IMG/VR virus record: IMGVR_UViG_3300049810_001563
Span: 1-23,207 of that record
Reading direction: 5' to 3' (one strand)
Source: a virus
Length of the DNA stretch: 23,207 nt
The translations under genes were made by a program, and so were the position numbers. The stretch's first letter is position 1. Each line of letters begins with the position of its first letter. Shown here one piece after another: positions 5,334 to 22,511 of the stretch. Under the pieces are notes generated by a model. That model searched no databases and was not told the DNA's origin. It worked only from the letters and a program-made list of their open reading frames with translations.

Positions 5334-6847
5334 TGGCTATTTCACTTAAAAAATATGACAGACAAGTAGGGGTGTCGGCTGAAACAGGAACTCAAGCTAT
5401 TGGTGGTGGGTTGGCTAGTGCAATGATTCAAGAAGCTGGTGCTGATGCTCAAACTTTAGCAACGGTTGCTAATGCTCTTGGCGATGCTTCTGATGCTTTT
5501 TTTGAACACAAAGCTAAAGGTGAAGTAGCTAAATATGAAGCCTACAAGCAAGAGTGGGCAAACGAGTTAGAGGTTAAAAAACAGCAAGGTTTACTTGAAG
5601 GTGAATTAAAAGCAACAGATTTATATGACAAGGTTGTAATTCCAGAGCAAATGGCGTTTGAAAAGTGGGTATCAGATCAAGGTTTTTCTGCGTTAGCTAG
5701 ACAGCAAATTGACCTAGATGTAGTAAACTTTGGTAAAAAAGTAAATGTTTCTGAGCGTTTAAATCTTCTTAAACTTCAAACAGAAGAAAGTAATTATAAT
5801 GTAACCTTAAAAGGTCAAAATAATTTAATTTCTGGATTACAACAGTTGCAAAAATTAAGAGGAGTTAATCCTAAAGATTATACAGAAGAACAAAAACTTA
5901 TTTTTGATAATGCTCAATTAAAAATAAAAGAAGGTAATGACGATCTTAACTCTTTACAAGGTAAAACAAAACCGGGAGTTGTTGAATCATTAATAGAAGA
6001 TTCTTATAAAAAATATTATTTATCAGAAGTAAGATTTTTAAATGATGAATATGATAATCAAAATTTAAGTTTTTTTGATTTAAAACAAAATTATTTAGAT
6101 TTAAAAAAAGATATAGAAAAAGATGCTGAAGAAGGAATTATTAATAAATCATCTATTCAGGATATTAATTTAGAATTAGATGCAAAAATTCAAAATGCTG
6201 CAAAAAGAGAAAGAGCTTCTATTAAAACTGATATAAAAAATATATCTGATGGGTTATTTGATGATGAAAAATTTATTGATTTTAATAATGTTAGAAATCT
6301 ATATATTAAAAATGAAGCATTAGGTAGTTATATAGATAATAATATTATGAATAGTTTAGAAGATTATTCTTTAGTAAATGATAATGCTAAAAAAGCTATT
6401 GAACTTTTGGAAAAAGGTTCTAAAGAAGATGGAATTGCTTTTACAAAAATATTAAATGAGTTAAGTGGTTTAGGTGAAGTAGGCAATGTTACTATGATGT
6501 TAGCACTTAATTATGCAGAACAAAATTTAGATAATGATGAAGAATTTATTGCTTACACAACAGGACTTCGTAAAAAAACAGATGTAACAATATCAATTAC
6601 ACCTGAGTTTAAAGATTATTTTTCAACACTTAAATATTTTATATTAGATCAAAAACAAAGTAAATATGATAGTTTTGCTAGTCAAAAATTAAAAGAATTT
6701 GTTAAATGGCAATTAACAGATGAAGATTATAGCTCTTTTAGAAAAAAACAATTTGGTTCATTTGCTAAAGAAATAGCTTTAAAACAAAATATTTTTGAAG
6801 AACCTACAACAACAACAACAAAAACATTAATTTGGGATAATCTATAA
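5333..6847 (+). CDS. Medium internal virion protein (T7 gp15-like position)
   Basis: This 504-aa protein is almost entirely helical and highly charged, with no membrane segment. The first 150 residues (start SLKKYDRQVG, then Gly/Ala-rich helices and FFEHKAKGEVAKYEAYKQEW) look conserved and have moderate base composition. From about residue 145 on, the coding sequence turns sharply AT-rich with mostly A or T at third positions. It sits between the small and the giant core proteins exactly where T7 has gp15, a tube-forming ejection protein. TAATG overlaps join it to both neighbours. No catalytic motif is visible. Confidence 0.7.
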   Translation: MAISLKKYDRQVGVSAETGTQAIGGGLASAMIQEAGADAQTLATVANALGDASDAFFEHKAKGEVAKYEAYKQEWANELEVKKQQGLLEGELKATDLYDKVVIPEQMAFEKWVSDQGFSALARQQIDLDVVNFGKKVNVSERLNLLKLQTEESNYNVTLKGQNNLISGLQQLQKLRGVNPKDYTEEQKLIFDNAQLKIKEGNDDLNSLQGKTKPGVVESLIEDSYKKYYLSEVRFLNDEYDNQNLSFFDLKQNYLDLKKDIEKDAEEGIINKSSIQDINLELDAKIQNAAKRERASIKTDIKNISDGLFDDEKFIDFNNVRNLYIKNEALGSYIDNNIMNSLEDYSLVNDNAKKAIELLEKGSKEDGIAFTKILNELSGLGEVGNVTMMLALNYAEQNLDNDEEFIAYTTGLRKKTDVTISITPEFKDYFSTLKYFILDQKQSKYDSFASQKLKEFVKWQLTDEDYSSFRKKQFGSFAKEIALKQNIFEEPTTTTTKTLIWDNL

Positions 6848-9800
6848 TGAGTTTTAATGTTATTCTTCCAAATGGAACAACTATTAATAATATTCCAGAT
6901 GGTACAACAAAAGAACAAATAAAATTAAAAGCTATATCATCTGGTCTAGCTGTTGAATCTGATTTTGATTCTTCTAAATTAACTAATAAAAAAGAACCTA
7001 TTTTAAAAAATATTTTAACAAAAGAAGATGAAGAAGATTTAGTTGCACAATCTTTTTATAGTTCTAAATTAGGAACTAATGCACCACTTGCAGTAATAGA
7101 AGGTCAGTATAAATATGAATATGGAGATAATGCAACTGTATCTTATGTTAATTCACAAAATCAAAAACCAATTACTATAATAGATAGATTTAAACCTCAA
7201 AATCAACCAACACCTAGTGAATCTTGGACTTTATTTTCTCAAAACTTTAGACAAAATAATCCTTTAGGCGTTTCTGTTAAAAGAGGAGTTCTTACTGCTT
7301 CACAAATAGGCATTAAACCATTAGAAGAAAGACTTAAAACAGTAGAAGAATCTGGTGGAGATTTTAATAAAGCATTAGAAAAAGACCCTCAAGCTGCTTT
7401 TTTAATTGCAACAGGTATTAGTAAAGGAACAATATCTTCAGACATAACTAAAACACTTAATATTAATGAAGAAAAATTACAAAAACTTGCAAAAACTCAA
7501 GAGGATATTACAGAAAAAATATTAAGTGTACCTGAAAAAAAAAGAAAAAGTATTGGTGGTATGATTAGTACAGTAGCTTCTGAAATACCATCGATGGGTA
7601 TATATGCAATACCAGTTGTCGGAGTTGCTGCAGGTTATACATATAATTTGGCAAGATATTATGATTCAGGGTTTCAAGAATATTATGCTGCAGAAATATC
7701 AAAAGGTACTGACCCACAAAGAGCTTCTGAAATAGCATCTAATCGTGCAGCAGGTTACGCATCTTTATTTAGTGTAATAGGAACTGCTGTTGATAAAGTT
7801 ACTTTAGGTGTAGGTAAAGGAATTAAACCTAAACCAGAAAATATTGGTAAACTATTTAAAAAAGATACTCAGTTAAAAATTTTGTTAGATGCTCAAAAAC
7901 CTGCTGTGGGAGAAATGTTTACAGAAATGGGTGAATCTTTTTATTTACAAATAGGAACAAGAGATCAAATAAATTGGAATGAAGTAATAGAAAATGGTGC
8001 ATACGGATATTTAGGTGGTAAATTAGCAGGTGGAACCTTTGGTCAAATAAATGTTTTACAACAAAACAGAATAAAAAATGCTTTTATAAGAGAGGGTATA
8101 GATAATAAAACTGCTGGTGAAATTGTTCAAGCTAAAAATAATAAAGAAGCAGTAGATATATTTACAAAGTTTTTTGACAAACAAGTTGAAACATTAGGAC
8201 AAGAATTAAAAGAAAGTCAAGCTGCTGAAAAAAATGCATTATTAGAAAGTTCTATACTTACTCTTGGTGATGTTAATATAATTAGAAAGCAATATTCTAA
8301 TGAAGAACTTGTAGAAAAAATAAAATCTGATCCTGTATTTGGTGAAACAAAAGAAACAATTAATTTAGCTCAAGATGTTTTTTTAAATGGTTCTGAAAAA
8401 TCATTAGATGTTTTAAATACAAAAATTGCAGAACAATTTCAATCTCAAGAAGATGTATCTATTACACCTGAACCTGAAGTTACACCTACAGAAGAAGTAG
8501 TTACAGAGCAAGTAGCAGAACCAGAAACTGTAGCTGAACCTACAGTAGAGCCTGAATCTGAACTTATGAAGGTTATTCCATCATCATTAAGCATTGATAA
8601 AAGTGGTGCAGCGAAATTTCTTGATTCAAATGGAAAAGAAATATTAGTTGATCGTGATGTAAATTTGTTGGCTTTTAATGCTGTAACGCAAGCTCAAAAA
8701 CTTTTAAATAGCGAACAAAGAAGTGCAAATTTTCTTGGAAAACAATTAATAGATAATAATTTATCTTTAGAAAACGCAGAATATAATAATTTTATAAAAG
8801 CTATAGTTGTTAAAGATGGTAAAAATGATTTTAATAAAATTGAAAACTTAGTAAAAAACTTTGATGAAAAGATAGTTTTTATTCCTAGAAAAAAAATAAA
8901 TAAAGATGGAACTTATAAATTATCTGATGCGTTAATAGTAGAAGAAAGTTTATTAGATACAGTTAGCTTGTTAAAAAATGAAAGTTATATAATTAATAAC
9001 ATTCCTAATAATGCCTCAGGAACACTTGAAGTTGTTGTAAGCGGTGAAACGGTAGGAAAAACAGATGGAAGTGTAGGTTATTATGCTAGAAATCAAAAAG
9101 AATTAGCTAAACCAACACCTTTAGCTGAACCAGCAATCGCAGAAGATGAAAAAATTGCGATGCTTGAAAAACAAAAAAAAGAAATGTTGTATAAACGAGA
9201 AAATGTAAAAACTGTTTATCAAGGAAGAGGTTTTACAAAAGATGAAATATATACTAGCACACAAACCCCTGCTGCTGGTGAAGGTCAATATTATGCTTTT
9301 ACTAAAAATGAAGCATCTAATTATGGAGATAAAATTACAAAATCTGAAATAGATATTTCTAATTTATATCAACTTGATGGCAACTCATTTGATGTTTTAT
9401 TAAAAGAATTAAAAGAAAACAACCCAAATTTATTACCAGATATAGTAAATAATGATGATAGAACTAATTTATCTTTATCCTTTCGTTATAGGGAACAATT
9501 AGATCAAAGTCCTGAAATAGCACAAAAATTAAAAGAACTAATTATTAGTAAAGGATATAATGGATTTATTATACGAGGGATTCAAAATGAACTTATAAAT
9601 CCTAAATCTTTTAGAAATTTATTTGGTTCAAACCAAATTGTTGTTTACCCAGAAGCTACACCTGTAGTTGAACTAACACCTGTAGATGCAGAAGTAAATG
9701 CAGAAAGAGTTGCGTCTGCTAGTGAAATTTTATTACCAAATGAAATAGAAGAAACGCAACCTAAACGTGGTCAACCTAAAAAAATTGGTTTATCTAAAAA

Positions 9801-11946
9801 ATTAAATGCTCAAGTAAGAGAATTAGATGATCAAGGCATTATTCCTACAGAAGAAAATTATGCTAAAGCTGCCGAACAACAATTAGATATTTCTTATGAA
9901 GATATAATAACAAAAATTAATAATGGTGAATCTATTGATAAAATAGATGTTGCTGCTTTAACAATGGCTGTAGCAAATATTTCTAACGAAATAGATTTAT
10001 TACAAGATAAAATTGATGCAGGAATTAATGTTAAAGATAATGCTACTTTAAGAGATTTAAAAGAAAATGAAGCATTATCTATAAGAGAAGCTGCAGGAAA
10101 AGCATCTGCTGAAGTTGCTAGAACTTTACAAATGTTTAGTACAGTTATCGATAGAAATAGATATAGTAGAGATAATTTATTTAAAAAAGCAGAAAAAGTT
10201 AGATCAGAAGATATTACTGATGCTGAGTTTAAAAAAACAAAAGATGATCTTAGAGCAATAGCTAAAGAAATAAAAAAACAAGAAACACAAGCTGACGAAA
10301 TTAATGAAATGTCATCTTTAGAAAAAATTCTTTATGAAGTAGAAAATGCTGTAAGAATAATAAAAACAAAACCTACAAGTAAACGTGAAAAAAATTCTGC
10401 ATCAAGATTAATAAAAAGAAGGCAAGATAAAATATTTAATTTAATATCAGAAATTAATGGAGTGCTTCCTATATCTAAAAGAATTAAAAAAATTCAAATA
10501 GAAGATTCTTCTGGTTATTTAGCAATGATTCAAAGTTTACAAACAGAAGTATCTAAAATAAGAAAATCTAAAAAGTTAGATAAACGAATTAGTGATCTAC
10601 AAGAGGAATTATCTATTATAAGACAAATAAAAAAATTAAAAATTGAAATTAAAAAACGTAAAAATGTTAAACAAAATACTATTTTATTAGAAAAATTAAA
10701 TAAAAAAATTAAAAAACCTTCTAAAAGAAAACCTGAAACTGATCCACTTATTATTGAAAAACAAGCTACTGTAAGACGTTTAAAAAGAGAGGCTAATAGA
10801 CAAATAGAATTACTAAATACTCCTGATGGATTAGTTAGGGCAAGACAATATTGGGATACATTTAGAAGTTTAAAATTAACTTTTGATGTTGGTCATTTAT
10901 TTAGACAAGGCGGTTTTGTTATTAGCAATCCAAGACTAGCTTTTAGTAAAAATGGAATGACATTTTTTAAAGAATCATTTAGAGCATTTAATGAAGTCAA
11001 TGCTGATAGAGCAATGGCTACTATAGAATCTGACCCTGATTATCAAATGTTAATTGATGGTGGTTTAAGAATTGTTCAAGAAGGCGATGATTTTGGTCAA
11101 CGTGAAGAAATACTACAAAATAATCTTATTGAAAATAAAGTGTTTGATGGATTTGCTAGATCACAAGTAACAGGGACTAATTTAATTAGATTTTATGCTG
11201 CTAAAAGTTATTTAGAAAATATGCCAGACCCTAGTCCTGAAGAAGTAAAAGCAGTATGTAAAACAATAAATATTATGACTGGATATGGAAATGTTAAAGG
11301 ATTAAGTAAAGAAAATTATAGAATGGCAAATGTTATTTTAACATCTGCTAGATTTACTGCGTCAAGAATACAAGCTCCATTTCAATTATTAAGACCATCT
11401 GTTTTTAAAAATAAAGCATTACGAAATAGATTAATTCAAGATAGTTTGGCATTTTGGGGCTTAAGAATGGGATTAATGTTTGCTTTTGTTTTGTCTGTAG
11501 ATGATGAAGATAAAGTTTACATTGGTATGGATTATAAAAAATGGACTTTTGGAAGATTAGTTATTCGTTTAGATAATGGATACAGCAGAGTATATGACCC
11601 TTGGGCAGGAATACAAACTACTATAGATTTAGGATTAAGATTATTTGGCAGAAAAAGTCAAGGAACTTTTACTGAACTAGGTAATTTTCTTGATAAAAGA
11701 AAACATCCATCAGCAGGAGCTGTAAAAGCTATAGTCCTTGGAAAAGATTGGAGGGGTAAAGAATTTAGTAATGATCCTTTAACTTCTAGGGTTGAGGGAG
11801 CTTTAAGATCAATAACTCCTATTTCAGCAGAAGGGTTATTTGATTCTGTATATGAAGATTTAGGCGTTTTAGATGCAGTAACATCAGTAGCTACAGATGT
11901 AGTTGGTATTTCTAGTTTTTTAATAAAAACAAAAGATTTACCTTAA
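6847..11946 (+). CDS. Giant internal virion (ejection) protein with ADP-ribosyltransferase-like segment
   Basis: This 1,699-aa protein holds the T7 gp16 position. The start carries the short repeat-like motif NNIPDGTTKEQI (15-26) common in large phage ejection proteins. A membrane-like segment lies at about 237-262, and an acidic Pro/Glu/Thr linker at 538-573. Residues about 789-938 look like an ADP-ribosyltransferase of the polyvalent-protein type: VYQGRG 790-795, GEGQYYAF 811-818, SNYGDK 824-829 and GYNGFII 903-909. The expected late Glu is unclear, because the aligned strand reads QIVVYPE (930-936). A Lys-rich coiled coil spans about 1180-1310, and a conserved-looking C-terminal domain with a hydrophobic stretch (about 1532-1550) ends the protein. 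No lysozyme or transglycosylase motif was seen. The gene is strikingly AT-rich. Confidence 0.75.
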   Translation: MSFNVILPNGTTINNIPDGTTKEQIKLKAISSGLAVESDFDSSKLTNKKEPILKNILTKEDEEDLVAQSFYSSKLGTNAPLAVIEGQYKYEYGDNATVSYVNSQNQKPITIIDRFKPQNQPTPSESWTLFSQNFRQNNPLGVSVKRGVLTASQIGIKPLEERLKTVEESGGDFNKALEKDPQAAFLIATGISKGTISSDITKTLNINEEKLQKLAKTQEDITEKILSVPEKKRKSIGGMISTVASEIPSMGIYAIPVVGVAAGYTYNLARYYDSGFQEYYAAEISKGTDPQRASEIASNRAAGYASLFSVIGTAVDKVTLGVGKGIKPKPENIGKLFKKDTQLKILLDAQKPAVGEMFTEMGESFYLQIGTRDQINWNEVIENGAYGYLGGKLAGGTFGQINVLQQNRIKNAFIREGIDNKTAGEIVQAKNNKEAVDIFTKFFDKQVETLGQELKESQAAEKNALLESSILTLGDVNIIRKQYSNEELVEKIKSDPVFGETKETINLAQDVFLNGSEKSLDVLNTKIAEQFQSQEDVSITPEPEVTPTEEVVTEQVAEPETVAEPTVEPESELMKVIPSSLSIDKSGAAKFLDSNGKEILVDRDVNLLAFNAVTQAQKLLNSEQRSANFLGKQLIDNNLSLENAEYNNFIKAIVVKDGKNDFNKIENLVKNFDEKIVFIPRKKINKDGTYKLSDALIVEESLLDTVSLLKNESYIINNIPNNASGTLEVVVSGETVGKTDGSVGYYARNQKELAKPTPLAEPAIAEDEKIAMLEKQKKEMLYKRENVKTVYQGRGFTKDEIYTSTQTPAAGEGQYYAFTKNEASNYGDKITKSEIDISNLYQLDGNSFDVLLKELKENNPNLLPDIVNNDDRTNLSLSFRYREQLDQSPEIAQKLKELIISKGYNGFIIRGIQNELINPKSFRNLFGSNQIVVYPEATPVVELTPVDAEVNAERVASASEILLPNEIEETQPKRGQPKKIGLSKKLNAQVRELDDQGIIPTEENYAKAAEQQLDISYEDIITKINNGESIDKIDVAALTMAVANISNEIDLLQDKIDAGINVKDNATLRDLKENEALSIREAAGKASAEVARTLQMFSTVIDRNRYSRDNLFKKAEKVRSEDITDAEFKKTKDDLRAIAKEIKKQETQADEINEMSSLEKILYEVENAVRIIKTKPTSKREKNSASRLIKRRQDKIFNLISEINGVLPISKRIKKIQIEDSSGYLAMIQSLQTEVSKIRKSKKLDKRISDLQEELSIIRQIKKLKIEIKKRKNVKQNTILLEKLNKKIKKPSKRKPETDPLIIEKQATVRRLKREANRQIELLNTPDGLVRARQYWDTFRSLKLTFDVGHLFRQGGFVISNPRLAFSKNGMTFFKESFRAFNEVNADRAMATIESDPDYQMLIDGGLRIVQEGDDFGQREEILQNNLIENKVFDGFARSQVTGTNLIRFYAAKSYLENMPDPSPEEVKAVCKTINIMTGYGNVKGLSKENYRMANVILTSARFTASRIQAPFQLLRPSVFKNKALRNRLIQDSLAFWGLRMGLMFAFVLSVDDEDKVYIGMDYKKWTFGRLVIRLDNGYSRVYDPWAGIQTTIDLGLRLFGRKSQGTFTELGNFLDKRKHPSAGAVKAIVLGKDWRGKEFSNDPLTSRVEGALRSITPISAEGLFDSVYEDLGVLDAVTSVATDVVGISSFLIKTKDLP

Positions 11947-13252: not shown

Positions 13253-13582
13253 ATGATAGATATAATGTTAGCACAAGACAGATACAATAATAATATGCAG
13301 TATGCACATTTGAATGCATCACAAGCACAAAACTTAGCAGCTGCATCTACAACTGTATGGGATTCAGGTAGCGATCGTCACGTTGTAATCACACCAACAG
13401 CAGCAGATGCGTATGTATCAGTAACACCTAATGGGACATCTACTGTTCCTGATGGGACTGGGACTGGATACACGCTCGGCAAGCTGATTACATTTGGGAG
13501 TTCTTACACTACTATTGTTCGTGCAGGTGAGCGTATTGCTACCTCTGCGATAATTAATGTGGTGTCAATCGGAGAAGTGTAA
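13253..13582 (+). CDS. Small virion-associated protein, possibly fibre or tail accessory
   Basis: This 109-aa protein has a helical N-terminus rich in Asn and Gln (to about 32), then a beta-rich region with Thr, Val and Gly. It is soluble, with no signal or membrane segment. Ribosome-site options upstream of ATG 13253 are AAGGTAAGG-type; a second ATG at 13265 is possible. It sits between the tail fibre and the LamG protein and joins the latter by a TAATG overlap, so a tail or decoration role is likely. I do not recognise the family. Confidence 0.7.
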   Translation: MIDIMLAQDRYNNNMQYAHLNASQAQNLAAASTTVWDSGSDRHVVITPTAADAYVSVTPNGTSTVPDGTGTGYTLGKLITFGSSYTTIVRAGERIATSAIINVVSIGEV

Positions 13583-15726
13583 TGAACTTTGGTTCGTTTG
13601 GAGCGGGCTTCGGTTCATTCGGTGCTGGTGTTGGAGGGTTGTTGCCTTCCTTCACCAACATAACGTCTTGGCTTAAAGCACCTACGGCAGATGGCAAAAC
13701 GCTTGCAAACAGCAAGGGTACGGATGCCACGCTTACTGGTATTAACTGCCTTGATTTTGATGGCTCCGGAGATAGAGTAGAAGTTGACTCAGCGGGTGGA
13801 GTAGATTTAACAACAGATGCTGCAAATAATTTGGGCTCTTGTGTCATTACAGCAACCTTTCTACAGGATTTAGCGGGAACACAAGTTATTCACTCAGTTG
13901 GCAATTCAAGTTATAGGTTATTTACGCAAAATAATTTTTTAAAGGTAAACGCTGTTGCAACGGAATTATTTGCTATAGAGTTAAATAAAGTTTATCGAAG
14001 CACAATAACTTATGCTGCAAACGGTGGTGTAACAAATTTTGTTTTAGAAAATTTAACAGATGGAACAACACAAACAGACTCAACTACAAGAAATGCAGGT
14101 GCTCACGGAGGGGCTAATGGATTTCAAATCGGTGCTAGGGGAACTGGATTAGTTTGGAGAGGTAAAATATCTAATGTTTCTGTATCTAATTCTTCTGTAG
14201 GTGCAAACCTTCATTTACCATTAGTAGAAGGCTCTGGCTCTGTAGCTTATGATGTAAGCGGTAATGGAGCTAATGGCAATATAGTCGGGGCAACTTGGGC
14301 TACGCTTGATGGCATTGAGTCTTGGAATCACCAGTATGGATTTACACCTGCTGTCCGTAGTACTGCTAATGATGGTTCGGTAGATACAGGTATTAGAATT
14401 GACTCAGCTAACATTGTTTTAAAAGCAAGGTTTTTATGGCGGGGCGACAACCAAGATTATTTATTTGGGATTTACAACGCAACTGCGTCTCAAAGATTTT
14501 TGTTTTATCAAAACAACACTCAAATGAGGCTTGTTACACCAAATGGTGGACACGATTTAGCAACGACAGCTAGTATACAAGATAAATTTGTAGACCTTGA
14601 AATTACTTCTACTTCCGCTACATTGAATGGAACGACAACATCTATTGATTTAACTGGTGTAAGTCAAACTGCTGACTTGCGTATATTTAGTAATAATGTT
14701 GGAACAGCTAATGCTGATTGTGACATCCAAAGTTTTAGTATTGTTAAAGATGGAACACTAGTTATTGATTATGTTTCCGCTCAAGCAGGTAAGTTTTACG
14801 ATAGAGTTTCTAATAGTCTTGTTTCTGGTACAGGAACATTGGTTACTAATAACATCCCCGCACTCAACACCAAGACTACACAGGTTGCTACCTTTGATGG
14901 TGCGGCTGACCACATTGATTTAGCATCTGGATTTACACTCGGTACATCTTGGGAGTTTGAAACAACATTAGCTACCTCTAGTTCGGGAACTGGTGATGGC
15001 AGACCATTCGGTATGGTGGAAGGTAACGATATTTTTCAATTTAAGACTGTTGTTGGTGAATCGATTGATGTAACTCTTAGAGATAGTAACAATAACTTAA
15101 TTGTTCAAACTATAACGCCAACAGATAGGTCAGATTTTAATACATATAAAGTAGTTAGAGATGGGAATACAGTTAATTATTATATTAATGATTCTTCTGT
15201 AGCGACTCAAGATGCTTCTAGCTTAGGTAACATAGTTATAGCTAATCCGATTATAGGTGCAAGAAGTGGTGACTCTGAATTTTTTAATGGTCAATTTAAA
15301 ACTTGGAAGCTAACTATATCAGGTTCTGTTGCAGTCGAGTATGACTTTCAAAGCGACATTGGTACAACTACAGTACAGGACTTGTCTGCTAATAACAATG
15401 ACGGCACAGTTACAGTAGGCTCTGGTGGTACAGCAACCTTCTGGGGTACTCGTGTAGCAGACACAGCAGGTTCGCTTGTGAGTGCAGACTATGCTACAGG
15501 TAACCTAACTATTAGCAACCCCGGAGGGTTCGTTCACAACGGCTCTGAGTGCGGTGTAGCTATGGTTACTAACAGTTTAACCTCAGCACAGTTGTTTGCT
15601 ATCAACAATGCAACTGCAACAGAAACATTTGTTCGTAAAGACAATGGCAACATTGTTCAGATACTAGACTACTCTAGTGCATTAACAGGTGATGATTTAA
15701 CAAGGACTAGAAGTTATGTTGGATGA
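13582..15726 (+). CDS. LamG / concanavalin-like tail protein, likely receptor binding
   Basis: This 714-aa protein contains about three jelly-roll segments of the concanavalin/LamG type. The first (about 50-245) ends in the typical signature LPLVEGSGSVAYDVSGNG, the second spans about 255-420 and the third about 435-615 (VEYDFQSD, then DLSANNNDGT). Such domains bind carbohydrates and occur in phage tail fibres and spikes. The first 20 residues hold an exact tandem heptapeptide FGSFGAG (3-9 and 10-16), perhaps a flexible attachment tag. The C-terminus (about 640-714) is separate and beta-rich. The gene starts in a TAATG overlap and its last 11 bases overlap the next gene. The molecule is probably exposed on the virion and recognises surface glycans. 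Confidence 0.75.
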   Translation: MNFGSFGAGFGSFGAGVGGLLPSFTNITSWLKAPTADGKTLANSKGTDATLTGINCLDFDGSGDRVEVDSAGGVDLTTDAANNLGSCVITATFLQDLAGTQVIHSVGNSSYRLFTQNNFLKVNAVATELFAIELNKVYRSTITYAANGGVTNFVLENLTDGTTQTDSTTRNAGAHGGANGFQIGARGTGLVWRGKISNVSVSNSSVGANLHLPLVEGSGSVAYDVSGNGANGNIVGATWATLDGIESWNHQYGFTPAVRSTANDGSVDTGIRIDSANIVLKARFLWRGDNQDYLFGIYNATASQRFLFYQNNTQMRLVTPNGGHDLATTASIQDKFVDLEITSTSATLNGTTTSIDLTGVSQTADLRIFSNNVGTANADCDIQSFSIVKDGTLVIDYVSAQAGKFYDRVSNSLVSGTGTLVTNNIPALNTKTTQVATFDGAADHIDLASGFTLGTSWEFETTLATSSSGTGDGRPFGMVEGNDIFQFKTVVGESIDVTLRDSNNNLIVQTITPTDRSDFNTYKVVRDGNTVNYYINDSSVATQDASSLGNIVIANPIIGARSGDSEFFNGQFKTWKLTISGSVAVEYDFQSDIGTTTVQDLSANNNDGTVTVGSGGTATFWGTRVADTAGSLVSADYATGNLTISNPGGFVHNGSECGVAMVTNSLTSAQLFAINNATATETFVRKDNGNIVQILDYSSALTGDDLTRTRSYVG

Positions 15727-16123
15727 AGAAGTAGTTGAGCCACACAAGTACGATAAGTTTCTCCACACCAATGGGGTAGCTTACGCATTCCTAGAAGTAC
15801 CAGTAGATTTTCTCAATCAACAAATGCCTGACTATGCTAACTGGGCTGTAGAAGAAGTTGATGAGGAAGGCAACCCAACTGAGTACAAGACACTAGGTGA
15901 GTACACGATAGGTCAGGTTCTATCGATAGACGGCACTACAGTTGTTATTACACTTGCGGCAATGCAAGCGGCAACCTACCGCACACCCGCTATAACTTAT
16001 GATGATATGCAGGATTGGGAAGACTGGCTCGGATTACACGGATATACTATTGACGACTGGTTAACTATAGCAGAGCGAAACACTTTACTAGCTAGCGAGG
16101 CTTACGGATTAGGGGATGAGTGA
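15716..16123 (+). CDS. Uncharacterised acidic protein in the tail operon
   Basis: This 135-aa protein is acidic and soluble, with many Asp, Glu and Trp residues in the second half (YDDMQDWEDWLGLHGYTIDDW, about 105-125). It starts inside the end of the LamG gene (11-base overlap) and ends 8 bases into the next gene, so it is translated as part of the tail block. A role as a tail assembly factor or fibre chaperone would fit the position, since such small acidic proteins often follow fibre genes. There is no motif to prove it. Confidence 0.65.
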   Translation: MLDEEVVEPHKYDKFLHTNGVAYAFLEVPVDFLNQQMPDYANWAVEEVDEEGNPTEYKTLGEYTIGQVLSIDGTTVVITLAAMQAATYRTPAITYDDMQDWEDWLGLHGYTIDDWLTIAERNTLLASEAYGLGDE

Positions 16124-16640
16124 ATATTTTTCAGATGGTGAAGAAGTTATTATCAAAGGCACGATCACTAGGTCGGGTGCTAAGGGAGATGTTTATAGCT
16201 CTGATGAAAGCACTAGCAAGTCTTTCGATGTTCGTGACCACATTGCCACCGAATCGATAGCTAGGGAAACAGTAGTACAGTCTGTGGTAGCACAGGCTCA
16301 GAGTATAGGAATGAGTGGCTGTATAGCTATGAGTAGTGGAGTCTACTTCCAAGCTGATGCGGTCGCTGATAATTGGGTTGAGGCAGTCGAGGTTGCACAG
16401 CCATTGGTGAATGAGTTGGTGGAGACGGGTACTATTACACCACCGATAGGAAGTAAGTATGAAGGTGTGGCTATACCAACCACCACATCTTTCTTGGGAG
16501 TTAAGGTTGGCAAAGAAAGACAAATGCAGAAAGCATACGAAGCACTAACGCCTGAACAGAAAGAAGCAAGAGATGTCATTAAGCAATCCGTTCAAACACC
16601 AGACGCACGAGCCGAAGAAAGAGAAGCCAGCTCAATATGA
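16116..16640 (+). CDS. Uncharacterised protein in the tail operon
   Basis: This 174-aa protein shows a beta-rich N-terminal third (EEVIIKGTITRSG), a central helical part with small residues, and a strongly charged C-terminus (EREASSI). No signal peptide or membrane segment is seen. The start overlaps the previous gene by 8 bases. The stop TGA lies in an ATGA overlap with a small membrane ORF at 16637, and its last 68 bases also overlap the PEP-CTERM-like ORF. I do not recognise the family. The position suggests a tail or late accessory function. Confidence 0.65.
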   Translation: MSEYFSDGEEVIIKGTITRSGAKGDVYSSDESTSKSFDVRDHIATESIARETVVQSVVAQAQSIGMSGCIAMSSGVYFQADAVADNWVEAVEVAQPLVNELVETGTITPPIGSKYEGVAIPTTTSFLGVKVGKERQMQKAYEALTPEQKEARDVIKQSVQTPDARAEEREASSI

Positions 16641-16878
16641 TTTATTTAAAGATTATTTTAGAGGCGATAAAGGAAAACCTGATTGTGATTGGGATTGGGA
16701 TTCTTGGTATCCTGTCAATGGTAACTATGTTTTTACCAAAGGGAAGCAAGGTAAGGAAGTTTTTAAATTTTTTAACAAAGAAGTAACAGATTGCAATGTG
16801 CCTGAACCCGCTAGTATTAGCTTTGTTCTACTAGCATCCGTCACATTATTATTTATAAAGAGAAAGTTTGCATTATGA
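16573..16878 (+). CDS. Small protein with C-terminal PEP-CTERM-like sorting signal
   Basis: This 101-aa ORF ends in a tripartite tail seen in exosortase substrates: V-P-E-P-A at 76-80, a hydrophobic helix at about 81-95, and a basic cluster KRK at 96-98 near the very C-terminus. The middle is rich in Asp and Trp (DCDWDWDSW, 37-45). There is no N-terminal signal peptide, which real PEP-CTERM substrates have. So either the start is wrong, the N-terminus comes from another frame (see the nested ORF), or the tail serves only as a membrane anchor. Third codon positions are rich in A/T like its neighbours, supporting this frame. The stop overlaps the next ATG (ATGA at 16875). The 5' start codon is the weakest part of the model. 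Confidence 0.6.
   Translation: MSLSNPFKHQTHEPKKEKPAQYDLFKDYFRGDKGKPDCDWDWDSWYPVNGNYVFTKGKQGKEVFKFFNKEVTDCNVPEPASISFVLLASVTLLFIKRKFAL
16637..16786 (+). CDS. Nested 49-aa membrane ORF inside the PEP-CTERM-like gene
   Basis: In another frame, an ORF starts with the ATGA overlap at the end of the 174-aa gene, the same coupling used by most genes that follow. It encodes 49 residues: a short amphipathic start, one hydrophobic helix (about 15-33, rich in Ile, Leu and Gly), then a basic tail (KGSKVRKFL). Small holin-like or spanin-like proteins can look like this. Against it, third positions are G-rich, unlike neighbouring genes. The heptamer TTTAAAT at 16762-16768 is in the correct phase for a -1 shift into the PEP-CTERM frame, which would make a two-helix product of about 80 aa. 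Confidence 0.35.
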   Translation: MIYLKIILEAIKENLIVIGIGILGILSMVTMFLPKGSKVRKFLNFLTKK

Positions 16879-17075
16879 AACAAGACGGACAGTTTAGCAT
16901 AAGAGAGAAAGAGTGGGTGGAGACTGCATCTAAATATATAGAAAGCAAGCACCTTCCCATCTTGGGTCAGATACTAAAGATTGTAGATACAACCTCTTTG
17001 ATGATTGGTCGTGCGTTGTTTGTAGGGATAGTTCTGGCGGGCATAGCATTGTTGAGTGGAAAATTACTTAAATGA
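16875..17075 (+). CDS. Small one-helix membrane protein
   Basis: This 66-aa protein has a charged N-terminal half and one hydrophobic segment at about 41-61 (SLMIGRALFVGIVLAGIALL), followed by a basic end SGKLLK. It begins at the ATGA that closes the PEP-CTERM-like gene and ends in an ATGA with the next gene. A single membrane helix and the location after the tail genes make a lysis-related role (holin or spanin component) possible, but no family is recognised. Confidence 0.65.
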   Translation: MKQDGQFSIREKEWVETASKYIESKHLPILGQILKIVDTTSLMIGRALFVGIVLAGIALLSGKLLK

Positions 17076-18170: not shown

Positions 18171-18281
18171 ATGCCAAAGGTAGGGAAGAAAGTATTTAAG
18201 TATACCAAGAAGGGTATGCAAGCAGCCAAGAAAGAAGCCAAGAAAACTGGCAAGAAAATGTCTATGAAAAAAGGCTACTAA
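18171..18281 (+). CDS. Very small Lys-rich protein (36 aa)
   Basis: Starting at ATG 18171 after a strong AAGGAG ribosome site (18159-18164), it encodes 36 residues of which over a third are Lys. The form PKVGKKVFKYTKKG followed by KKTGKKMSMKKGY resembles tiny basic proteins I remember next to the other basic proteins in marine phages. The stop TAA overlaps the next ATG (TAATG at 18279-18283). It may be a packaged or DNA-binding peptide. Confidence 0.65.
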   Translation: MPKVGKKVFKYTKKGMQAAKKEAKKTGKKMSMKKGY

Positions 18282-18706
18282 TGTCTGTTGAATTAATCGC
18301 AATGTTAGGTGGCTCACTATCTGGTTTCGTTATGAAACTAATCGCAGCCCAAGCTCAATCCCAGTCAGCTCAACTAGAGTCTATGCTCAAGAAGCAAGGG
18401 GTAGCTGATGATTCTGCTGATCGTGCGGCTAGTCGTGATGGGGTGGCAGGTGCAGTTGTCCGTAGAACGATTGCGTTGTGTACTTTGTTTGCTGTGATTT
18501 TTGCACCATTCGTTCTTGCGTTTTTCAACGAGCCAGTTACTATCGAAGCTAACGCATCAAGCGGTCTATTTGGATTCCTGTTTGGGAACTTATTCGATAA
18601 AGGAAATGGCTGGATTGAATTGCAAGGATACGTTTTATTACCAGAGGTTCGGCAAACGATGCTTGCTCTGGTCGGGTTTTACTTCGGTAGTTCTCAGGTT
18701 AAGTAG
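18281..18706 (+). CDS. Holin-like membrane protein
   Basis: This 141-aa protein has an N-terminal amphipathic or weakly hydrophobic stretch (3-22), a charged helical region with Gln and Ser (25-60), a strong membrane helix at about 63-82 and a second hydrophobic segment at about 118-136 ending in FYFGSSQVK. The end pattern FYFGSS followed by Lys occurs in small phage membrane proteins near lysis genes. It is the last gene before a terminator. A holin role is plausible from topology and position, but no endolysin is visible beside it. Confidence 0.5.
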   Translation: MSVELIAMLGGSLSGFVMKLIAAQAQSQSAQLESMLKKQGVADDSADRAASRDGVAGAVVRRTIALCTLFAVIFAPFVLAFFNEPVTIEANASSGLFGFLFGNLFDKGNGWIELQGYVLLPEVRQTMLALVGFYFGSSQVK

Positions 18707-20280: not shown

Positions 20281-20372
20281 TAAAAGTACTTCTTTAGTTC
20301 AAGGAACAAACAAGCAAAGGTTAAACCTATAAGTGCTGCACCGATCAGTTCGTAATAAAATTCTTTATCCAT
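20280..20372 (-). CDS. 30-aa single-helix membrane peptide
   Basis: ATG at 20372-20370 has AGGAG about 8 bases upstream, and TAA at 20282-20280 overlaps the next ATG. The peptide is MDKEFYYEL, a membrane helix (about 9-26, Ile/Gly/Ala/Leu-rich) and a Lys-containing end. Good coupling on both sides (it overlaps the nuclease gene upstream by 8 bases) supports a real gene. Function unknown. Confidence 0.55.
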   Translation of the reverse strand: MDKEFYYELIGAALIGLTFACLFLELKKYF

Positions 20373-20787
20373 TTATCATCTCCTGTATCATTGTGTAATA
20401 CGCTTGCCCATAGTCAGAACCATCAGCTTTTGTTGTCTCGTGCAGCTCGGCTAGGGTTACTGTTGGTATCTTACATTTAAGTTTCGCCATCATCATTAGA
20501 TACTCGTAACGATCTGGGAACTTATCTTTGAACCACTCGGTAGAGTGTAGTACATCCTTGTGCCACCAATGCAGGTGGTAGTAGGAAGATAGAACCTTCA
20601 TATTGGTAGGGTCTAGCTCCATACACTTGTGAGTTCCCACATTCAGAACGTGGCTTGCGTGGCAGTTAGAACCTGATACAACTTGTCCGCTGTACTGGCA
20701 GGTATAATCATCACGCAACTTGACACACCGCTTCGCCTTCTCAACGAGCTTCTTGGTGTACCACGTTCTGTTGTGGGGAAGTTTCAT
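20365..20787 (-). CDS. HNH / NinG-like recombination endonuclease (putative)
   Basis: This 140-aa protein has Cys30 and Cys42 flanking a short loop, then CHASHVLN (42-49), a conserved Asn at 62 and His residues at 71, 73 and 76. The Cys-His-Ala-Ser-His block followed by an Asn and further His is typical of the phage NinG/Rap and HNH endonuclease group. Such enzymes cut recombination or replication intermediates. The usual second zinc Cys pair is incomplete (QYSG follows Cys30), so metal binding may differ. It lies between the SSB-like gene and the membrane peptide. Confidence 0.65.
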   Translation of the reverse strand: MKLPHNRTWYTKKLVEKAKRCVKLRDDYTCQYSGQVVSGSNCHASHVLNVGTHKCMELDPTNMKVLSSYYHLHWWHKDVLHSTEWFKDKFPDRYEYLMMMAKLKCKIPTVTLAELHETTKADGSDYGQAYYTMIQEMING

Positions 20788-21394: not shown

Positions 21395-21559
21395 TTAGTC
21401 TCTTGTTATAAACAAACCCAACCACTCGGTGTGTCTGTTTTTATTTATCCATTCATAATATGGATCTAGTTGCTTGTAGTCAATACCTTTTCGTGAACTT
21501 TTGTAAGGAAACTCCTTGACCTTGCGGACTCCATCCTCTCTGTAAACATATTTAATCAA
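21395..21559 (-). CDS. 54-aa hypothetical protein with TTG start
   Basis: The frame begins at TTG 21559-21557, 7 bases after GGGAG, inside the last codons of the methyltransferase, and ends at TAA 21397-21395. The protein is basic and aromatic: IKYVYREDGVRKVKEF, then YKQLDPYYEWI and a C-terminal HTEWLGLFITRD. It fills the gap between the methyltransferase and the SSB-like gene. An ATG frame nearby is shorter and less protein-like. Function unknown. Confidence 0.5.
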   Translation of the reverse strand: MIKYVYREDGVRKVKEFPYKSSRKGIDYKQLDPYYEWINKNRHTEWLGLFITRD

Positions 21560-22511
21560 TGAGTCTCCCTATAAGAGTTTTAAAAGCTACTGCTGCTGTG
21601 TCTGGCACGACTCCGTTCCCCAAGAGCCTAAGTCTGTCCACCCTACAGGAAGCCCCATTAGCTGTTCTACCCAATCTGGGTTTAGTGCGTGGTTCTTCCC
21701 ACTCGTATTGTGGTTCGTTTGGTCTTGCGACAGTTCTCCTCTCCTCGCTAATGCACTTAAACATCTGGCTGCCTGACTGTTTCCTTGCAGTCTGTAATTT
21801 TGTTCGTCTGACGCTGATGGTGTTGGAAATGTTAGAACCGCATCTCTTAACTTCGCTCCGTAACTCGTTCCGTTCTTTCTTGTTGCTTTGAATCCTGTTG
21901 GTGTCATCTCCACATTCTTCGCTACGCCTCCCTCTACGCAACCTACTACACTCGGTGTTGGAAAGTTCATCGTGTCGGGAGTAGCCCAAGATAAAGACTC
22001 TCTTTCTCTGGTGAGGTTCGCCAACTTCAGACGCTGAGAATATTCCTGCCGTTGCCCGGTAACCCATTTCTTCCAAGTCGCTGAGGACATACTTGAGAAC
22101 TGATTCTCCGTCTTCTGTTTTGCTTGAGATGATTCCTTCAACGTTTTCGAGGAAAACAATTCTAGGTTTGCACTCTCTGATTCCTCTGCTGATGTAGGGA
22201 TAGAGATGGCGAGAGTCTTCAACACCCTTTTTAACTCCAGCATTACTGAAGGGTTGACAAGGGAATCCTCCTGATAAGATGTCCACTCTTCCACAAAACT
22301 CTTTGTATGGGAAGGTCTTAACGTCCGTGTATATAGGAGCTGCATAAATTTGTTCCGACTCCATCTTCGACACCAAGTTCGCCACTGCGAAGGCTTCGAT
22401 CTCCACATAAGCGATTTCTCGCAGGTTTGGCAGAACTCTCTTAAGTCCGAGTCCGATTCCGTCATAACCCGCACAGAGGCTAAGGTGTGTAATTGTTTTG
22501 GTAGTATCCAC
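21552..22511 (-). CDS. C5-cytosine DNA methyltransferase
   Basis: This 319-aa protein has the ordered motifs of the Dcm family: motif I at 11-22 (SLCAGYDGIGLG, AdoMet binding), motif IV at 81-89 (GGFPCQPFS, catalytic Cys85), motif VI at 122-124 (ENV), motif VIII at 168-172 (QRKRV) and motif X at 297-303 (LGNGVVP). The target-recognition region (about 180-285) is polar and unlike well-known specificities. The start is GTG 22511; AGGAG lies 7 bases upstream. No partner endonuclease is adjacent, so it is probably an orphan enzyme that protects phage DNA from host restriction. A second, long +1 frame (21587-22513) runs through the same DNA. Confidence 0.9.
   Translation of the reverse strand: MDTTKTITHLSLCAGYDGIGLGLKRVLPNLREIAYVEIEAFAVANLVSKMESEQIYAAPIYTDVKTFPYKEFCGRVDILSGGFPCQPFSNAGVKKGVEDSRHLYPYISRGIRECKPRIVFLENVEGIISSKTEDGESVLKYVLSDLEEMGYRATAGIFSASEVGEPHQRKRVFILGYSRHDELSNTECSRLRRGRRSEECGDDTNRIQSNKKERNELRSEVKRCGSNISNTISVRRTKLQTARKQSGSQMFKCISEERRTVARPNEPQYEWEEPRTKPRLGRTANGASCRVDRLRLLGNGVVPDTAAVAFKTLIGRLID

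Follow-up and report, generated by a model that had tools for sequence, protein, structure and literature searches.

Why should a bacteriophage encode a protein that ends like a substrate of a bacterial exosortase? The question is raised by a 23,207-nucleotide stretch of viral DNA from IMG/VR (hereafter, the window). In it, an earlier note had described VPEPA, a hydrophobic helix and KRK at the exact end of a 101-aa ORF, and had proposed that the phage might exploit the exosortase of its host to place a protein at the cell surface, for example for superinfection exclusion or lysis. The features of the locus are as follows.

16116..16640 (+): 174-aa conserved protein, first gene of the cassette, found in the alignment of relatives
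16573..16878 (+): 101-aa overlapping ORF (the 'short form' PEP-CTERM ORF), which starts at the ATG at 16573 and is read in the -1 frame of the 49-aa gene
16637..16786 (+): 49-aa conserved single-TM protein (MIYLKIILEAIKENLIVIGIGILGILSMVTMFLPKGSKVRKFLNFLTKK), which every relative encodes ahead of its PEP-CTERM gene
16752..16774 (+): candidate -1 frameshift site: TAAGGA, a 10-nt spacer and the heptamer T TTT TTA, in phase with the 49-aa gene
16798..16866 (+): PEP-CTERM sorting signal, the sole TIGR02595 match in the record
16875..17075 (+): 66-aa protein whose membrane helix is C-terminal; its gene closes the cassette, was found by alignment and has an ATGA overlap with the PEP-CTERM ORF
18281..18706 (+): 141-aa membrane protein (phrog_38283) with a homologue in the Verrucomicrobia phage P8625

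The tail and its setting

The 101-aa ORF ends in ...TDCNVPEPASISFVLLASVTLLFIKRKFAL*. VPEP occupies residues 76-79 (16798-16809), with Pro-Glu-Pro itself at residues 77-79, and is followed by a hydrophobic stretch of 16 residues (80-95; 16810-16857), within a predicted helix spanning residues 79-100, and by a basic cluster, KRK (96-98; 16858-16866). All three parts of the tail are therefore as first described, except that KRK does not form the last residues, because FAL ends the ORF. When the whole protein was scored, it reached 13.9 bits with TIGR02595 (cut-off 16) and 14.7 with PF07589 (cut-off 20.7). When the 23-kb record was scanned in all six frames, TIGR02595 matched once, at 15.6 bits; this score rose to 16.1 bits (E 0.0012) with its frame neighbours and so passed the 16-bit cut-off. 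Judged from the window alone, this evidence would be borderline, and it is the relatives that decide.

The absence of an N-terminal signal peptide, which the earlier note had regarded as the main problem, was borne out by hydropathy: the first 60 residues contain no hydrophobic N-terminus (maximum KD19 of -0.85). A structure model of the protein is disordered except for the C-terminal helix. What had been overlooked is the 49-aa ORF, which lies in another frame under residues ~22-71 of the 101-aa ORF; the first ~22 codons of the latter overlap the 3' end of the 174-aa ORF. The 49-aa gene itself starts in an ATGA overlap with the 174-aa ORF. The order of the cassette is the 174-aa gene, the 49-aa TM gene, the PEP-CTERM gene and, in many records, the 66-aa TM gene. 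The cassette follows the tail-fibre genes on the late strand and lies amid genes for small membrane proteins.

Elsewhere in the window, a 1699-aa ORF (6847-11946) forms a compositional island amid the structural genes, with a G+C content of 22-31% compared with about 40% in the remainder. On the opposite strand are an HNH-type endonuclease gene (20365-20787; weak phrog match) and, about 750 bases away, a C-5 cytosine methyltransferase gene (21552-22511; PF00145).

Conservation of the tail in related phages

Relatives were gathered by scanning IMG/VR with the genes that neighbour the 101-aa ORF. A PEP-CTERM tail is present at the cassette locus in about 33 of the 34 assessable phage records, and no TIGR02595 match was found in related phages that do not have the cassette (0/17); we consider that the tail is for this reason not a chance occurrence. 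Nor did phages P8625 and C75C1 yield a match. A further 17 records had no PEP tail in the part of the locus examined; three of these gave a match elsewhere in the record, in each case adjoining a homologue of the 49-aa gene.

The earlier note had suggested an HMM scan and a search for homologues in other phages, and had held that homologues retaining the helix and losing the PEP motif would speak against a sorting signal. Both checks came out largely in favour of the signal: four short-form relatives exceed the TIGR02595 cut-off unaided (L006, 16.8; L007, 17.1; L034, 17.8; L081, 19.0 bits), as do most long-form relatives, and only one of the ~34 homologues, the long form L114, has lost the motif. 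In L114 (44-595), SIIPEAQ takes the place of SIIPEPQ and the helix and basic end are unchanged; the change of PEP to PEA may be a natural loss or a sequencing error. Taken together, the comparisons support the view that the window tail is a genuine PEP-CTERM signal, selectively kept across this group of marine phages.

Long-form relatives

In the majority of relatives, which we call long forms, the PEP-CTERM gene is separate and encodes about 180-230 aa, arranged as a signal-peptide-like N-terminus (called by eye and from hydropathy), a variable domain, (I/V)PEP, a helix and a basic end (RKR). As far as sequence features go, these phage proteins appear to possess every one that marks the exosortase substrate class. 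Their cargo domains are of at least three types, unrelated or too diverged to group (the A2 type; L041; L089 and L095), and only the tail is common to these types. The model of the A2-type domain is a beta-sandwich whose core strands are predicted with confidence; a fold search gave a single clear structural match, to a viral protein that lacks annotation (39% identity), and a search of the PDB with the long-form domain gave no match at E <= 0.001.

Two tail-fibre-like genes of close relatives (window 13582-15726 and L002:8404-9309) have a common N-terminus (FGSFGAGFGSFGAGVGGLLPS) and wholly different C-terminal parts, an apparent swapping that resembles the swapping of cargo in the PEP-CTERM slot. 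Directly 3' of the PEP-CTERM gene in L089 (4378-5547) and L095 (4816-5991) is a gene for a strand-rich protein of ~390 aa with a signal peptide, possibly an outer-membrane partner of the PEP-CTERM protein. Its identification as an exosortase-associated outer-membrane barrel was rejected, as neither copy matched a family over the cut-off, and the 113 genomes of the G001 class contained no convincing homologue.

A short form probably overprinted on a membrane-protein gene

Seven records carry the short form (the window, L005, L006, L007, L034, L081 and L082), and L001 and L012 carry fragments of it. They encode no separate signal-peptide protein, and the PEP tail ends an ORF of 98-114 aa that, in the -1 frame, covers the 3' end of the 174-aa gene and all of the 49-aa gene. 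Is this ORF a gene? First, 7/7 distinct short forms have an open -1 frame across the 49-aa gene, and in 8/8 long forms tested it is closed, in two of them (L008 and L010) by a single codon. Under reshuffling of synonymous codons, the probability of an open frame is 0.008-0.042 per short form. Under neutral synonymous change from an open ancestor, the probability that all five lineages would stay open is 5e-5, a value that assumes a star tree and uses the codon changes observed in the lineages; both statistics come from few, non-independent lineages and one codon table throughout. Second, the ATG occupies the same alignment position in 7/7 short forms; in L081, AGGAG lies seven bases before it. 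Third, the part of the gene that follows PEP has diverged greatly (40-56% nucleotide identity for nearly all pairs and 70% for the window and L005), and the five tails compared all retain PEP, an open frame and hydrophobicity; after 30-50% neutral change, the probability of this outcome would be about 0.001-0.03 for each lineage. The helices of these five share 17-50% of their amino acids, and PEP is invariant in 7/7. Because the frame is open, the ATG conserved and the PEP-helix-basic arrangement kept in diverged tails, we regard the 101-aa ORF as, in all probability, a genuine gene that arose by overprinting. It would be one without a signal peptide, since none was found in any of the seven.

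An internal GTG start that would yield a 26-aa PEP peptide was considered and rejected, because L007 (ATT) and L034 (GTT) have no start codon at that position. Read-through from an upstream start is favoured because, in the five short forms that were aligned, every indel after the 49-aa stop codon and before PEP has a length divisible by 3 and so stays in frame. The synonymous rate among short forms is 0-21% in the 174-aa overlap and 20-54% outside it; we gave this difference little weight because L005 and L034 share an identical block there, probably through recent recombination.

How might such a protein be exported? The residues that flank the C-terminal helix are neutral or acidic before it and basic after it; by the positive-inside rule, an N-out/C-in orientation is therefore predicted, with PEP at the periplasmic face. 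ProW of E. coli offers a precedent, in that its long N-terminal tail is translocated although the protein has no signal peptide, and by analogy such export of the short-form N-tail is possible.

Host and exosortase

Five genome bins, of which two are Verrucomicrobiota, contain homologues of the 141-aa gene, as does phage P8625, whose host belongs to the class Opitutae (PMC4642752). Both Verrucomicrobiota bins encode an exosortase (PF09721, E ~1e-42), which was not matched in the other three; in the order of the Opitutae bin, 37 of 52 genomes carry one. We consider Verrucomicrobiota a likely, not an established, host. The uncertainty arises because the capsid and tail genes of the window, which are nearest to those of pelagiphages and other phages (about 30-36% identity), are less like those of any Verrucomicrobia phage than like those of pelagiphages. 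Capsid homologues in the Verrucomicrobiota bins are just ~30% identical and thus uninformative. P8625, of known Verrucomicrobia host, is without the cassette, and a scan of genome contigs with a long-form protein gave no match. The exosortase that the earlier note had proposed to seek in predicted hosts was thus found in candidate hosts.

What might the cassette do?

In the model of Haft et al. 2006, a signal peptide takes the protein across the inner membrane, the C-terminal helix anchors it with PEP in the periplasm, and EpsH/exosortase acts on it; a signal peptide is present in 97% of cellular PEP-CTERM proteins (PMC1569441). By this model, the signal peptide of the long-form product would direct its export, the C-terminal helix would hold it in the inner membrane with PEP in the periplasm, and the host exosortase might then recognise it and deliver it to the outer cell surface. 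In the subgroup of the window, the exported domain and the signal peptide are missing, and the tail ends a putative protein of ~100 aa overprinted on the 49-aa gene, in which the N-out/C-in helix may set PEP at the periplasmic face unaided. The likely role would be a change of the host envelope late in infection, for example to exclude superinfecting phages, to mask receptors or to aid release.

With somewhat more confidence than doubt, we regard the product of this late-gene cassette as a phage-encoded exosortase substrate destined for the host envelope. Against this reading stand the missing signal peptide of the window copy, its whole-protein HMM scores below the cut-offs, the PEA of L114, the pelagiphage-like capsid and tail genes, the three bins with no exosortase match and the want of the cassette in P8625. 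That the tag has been retained in a shrunken, overlapping gene suggests that the phage may borrow the sorting machinery of its host. The comparisons show a conserved tail, long forms of complete architecture, an overlapping frame under selection and exosortases in putative hosts; from these we infer the export of the short form, its processing by exosortase, its biological role and its host. The earlier proposal of surface placement by the host exosortase gains from the genuine tail, from the complete long forms and from the exosortase in candidate Verrucomicrobiota, although nothing singles out superinfection exclusion or lysis; these and receptor masking look alike from sequence, and late envelope modification is the natural reading.

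Would a plain membrane anchor suffice? The short form might be a real overlapping gene whose tail merely anchors a component of a lysis or envelope module, PEP having been inherited from the long form. The want of a signal peptide (0/7 short forms) and the small membrane proteins nearby would fit this, and the module itself is supported by a phage lysozyme gene (PF00959, 6e-10; L006:3817-4434) inserted in the cassette region of L006, adjoining the PEP-CTERM ORF. However, a plain anchor needs no PEP, and PEP is the invariant part of tails whose helices have diverged almost freely. We thus judge this reading unlikely, though deserving of serious attention.

A more improbable idea is that the short form is a decoy, which would occupy the host exosortase and block the surface delivery of the host's own PEP-CTERM proteins. 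A decoy would suit the orientation predicted for the helix, N-out with PEP facing the periplasm, and the loss of the cargo domain, but the long forms do bear cargo, which suggests that sorting is the commoner use.

There is also a slim chance of programmed -1 frameshifting: a slip at T TTT TTA, close to the 3' end of the 49-aa gene, would join the N-terminal membrane helix of that protein to the PEP-CTERM tail and so supply membrane targeting. In the window, the canonical heptamer is in phase and a Shine-Dalgarno-like TAAGGA lies 10 nt upstream, and the heptamer also occurs in L001, L005, L006 and L012. However, it is absent from L007, L034, L081 and L082, which retain the same architecture, and because the site is not conserved beyond the nearest relatives, we keep this fusion as a minor rival only. 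Moreover, the long forms L008 and L010 carry an identical heptamer, after which the -1 frame soon ends; frameshifting would not need a -1 frame open upstream of the slip site; and the basic residues that follow the first helix would be expected to orient PEP the wrong way. Least credible is that the tail is a decayed remnant of a deleted long-form gene, or a chance match, in an ORF open by accident: low HMM scores in the window and extensive overlap with two better conserved genes would allow it, but seven diverged short forms retain frame, start and tail, and related phages gave zero background matches.

Relation to known systems

If the cassette product is an exosortase substrate, as we prefer, it belongs with the PEP-CTERM/EpsH system (TIGR02595, PF07589; exosortase PF09721), with which it shares the C-terminal PEP, the hydrophobic helix of ~16 residues and the basic end, in the long forms the N-terminal signal peptide too, and a weak family resemblance between proteins whose mature domain is variable and poorly conserved. 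Unlike the cellular proteins, those described here come from phages, whose late-gene cassette carries one per record, and the subgroup of the window has no signal peptide and an ORF overprinted on the 49-aa membrane-protein gene. LPXTG/sortase proteins of Gram-positive phages are likewise brought to the surface by a host C-terminal sorting signal, through an unrelated enzyme and motif, whereas the present case concerns a Gram-negative envelope. The spanin pair Rz/Rz1 of lambda likewise consists of late-module envelope proteins whose reading frames overlap; the short form has no visible lipobox or known periplasmic coiled coil, and the likeness is of genetic overlap only.

In the titles and abstracts searched, subscription papers and preprints excluded, we found none that links PEP-CTERM proteins to phages; homologous phage proteins are evidently already in databases, unannotated. 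The signal is thus a known one on a new carrier, with an unusual form that is overprinted and lacks a signal peptide. Tentatively, a bolder possibility is that a marine phage group encodes dedicated exosortase substrates that hijack PEP-CTERM sorting, one branch having been reduced to an overprinted protein without a signal peptide, possibly a decoy or a minimal surface anchor. The conserved cassette makes these proposals testable, as it combines one locus, swapped cargo and a constant tail. If they are true, phages exploit the exosortase pathway, and the cassette would provide a handle on what PEP-CTERM sorting is worth to the host and on how the phages of exosortase-bearing bacteria manage the envelope.
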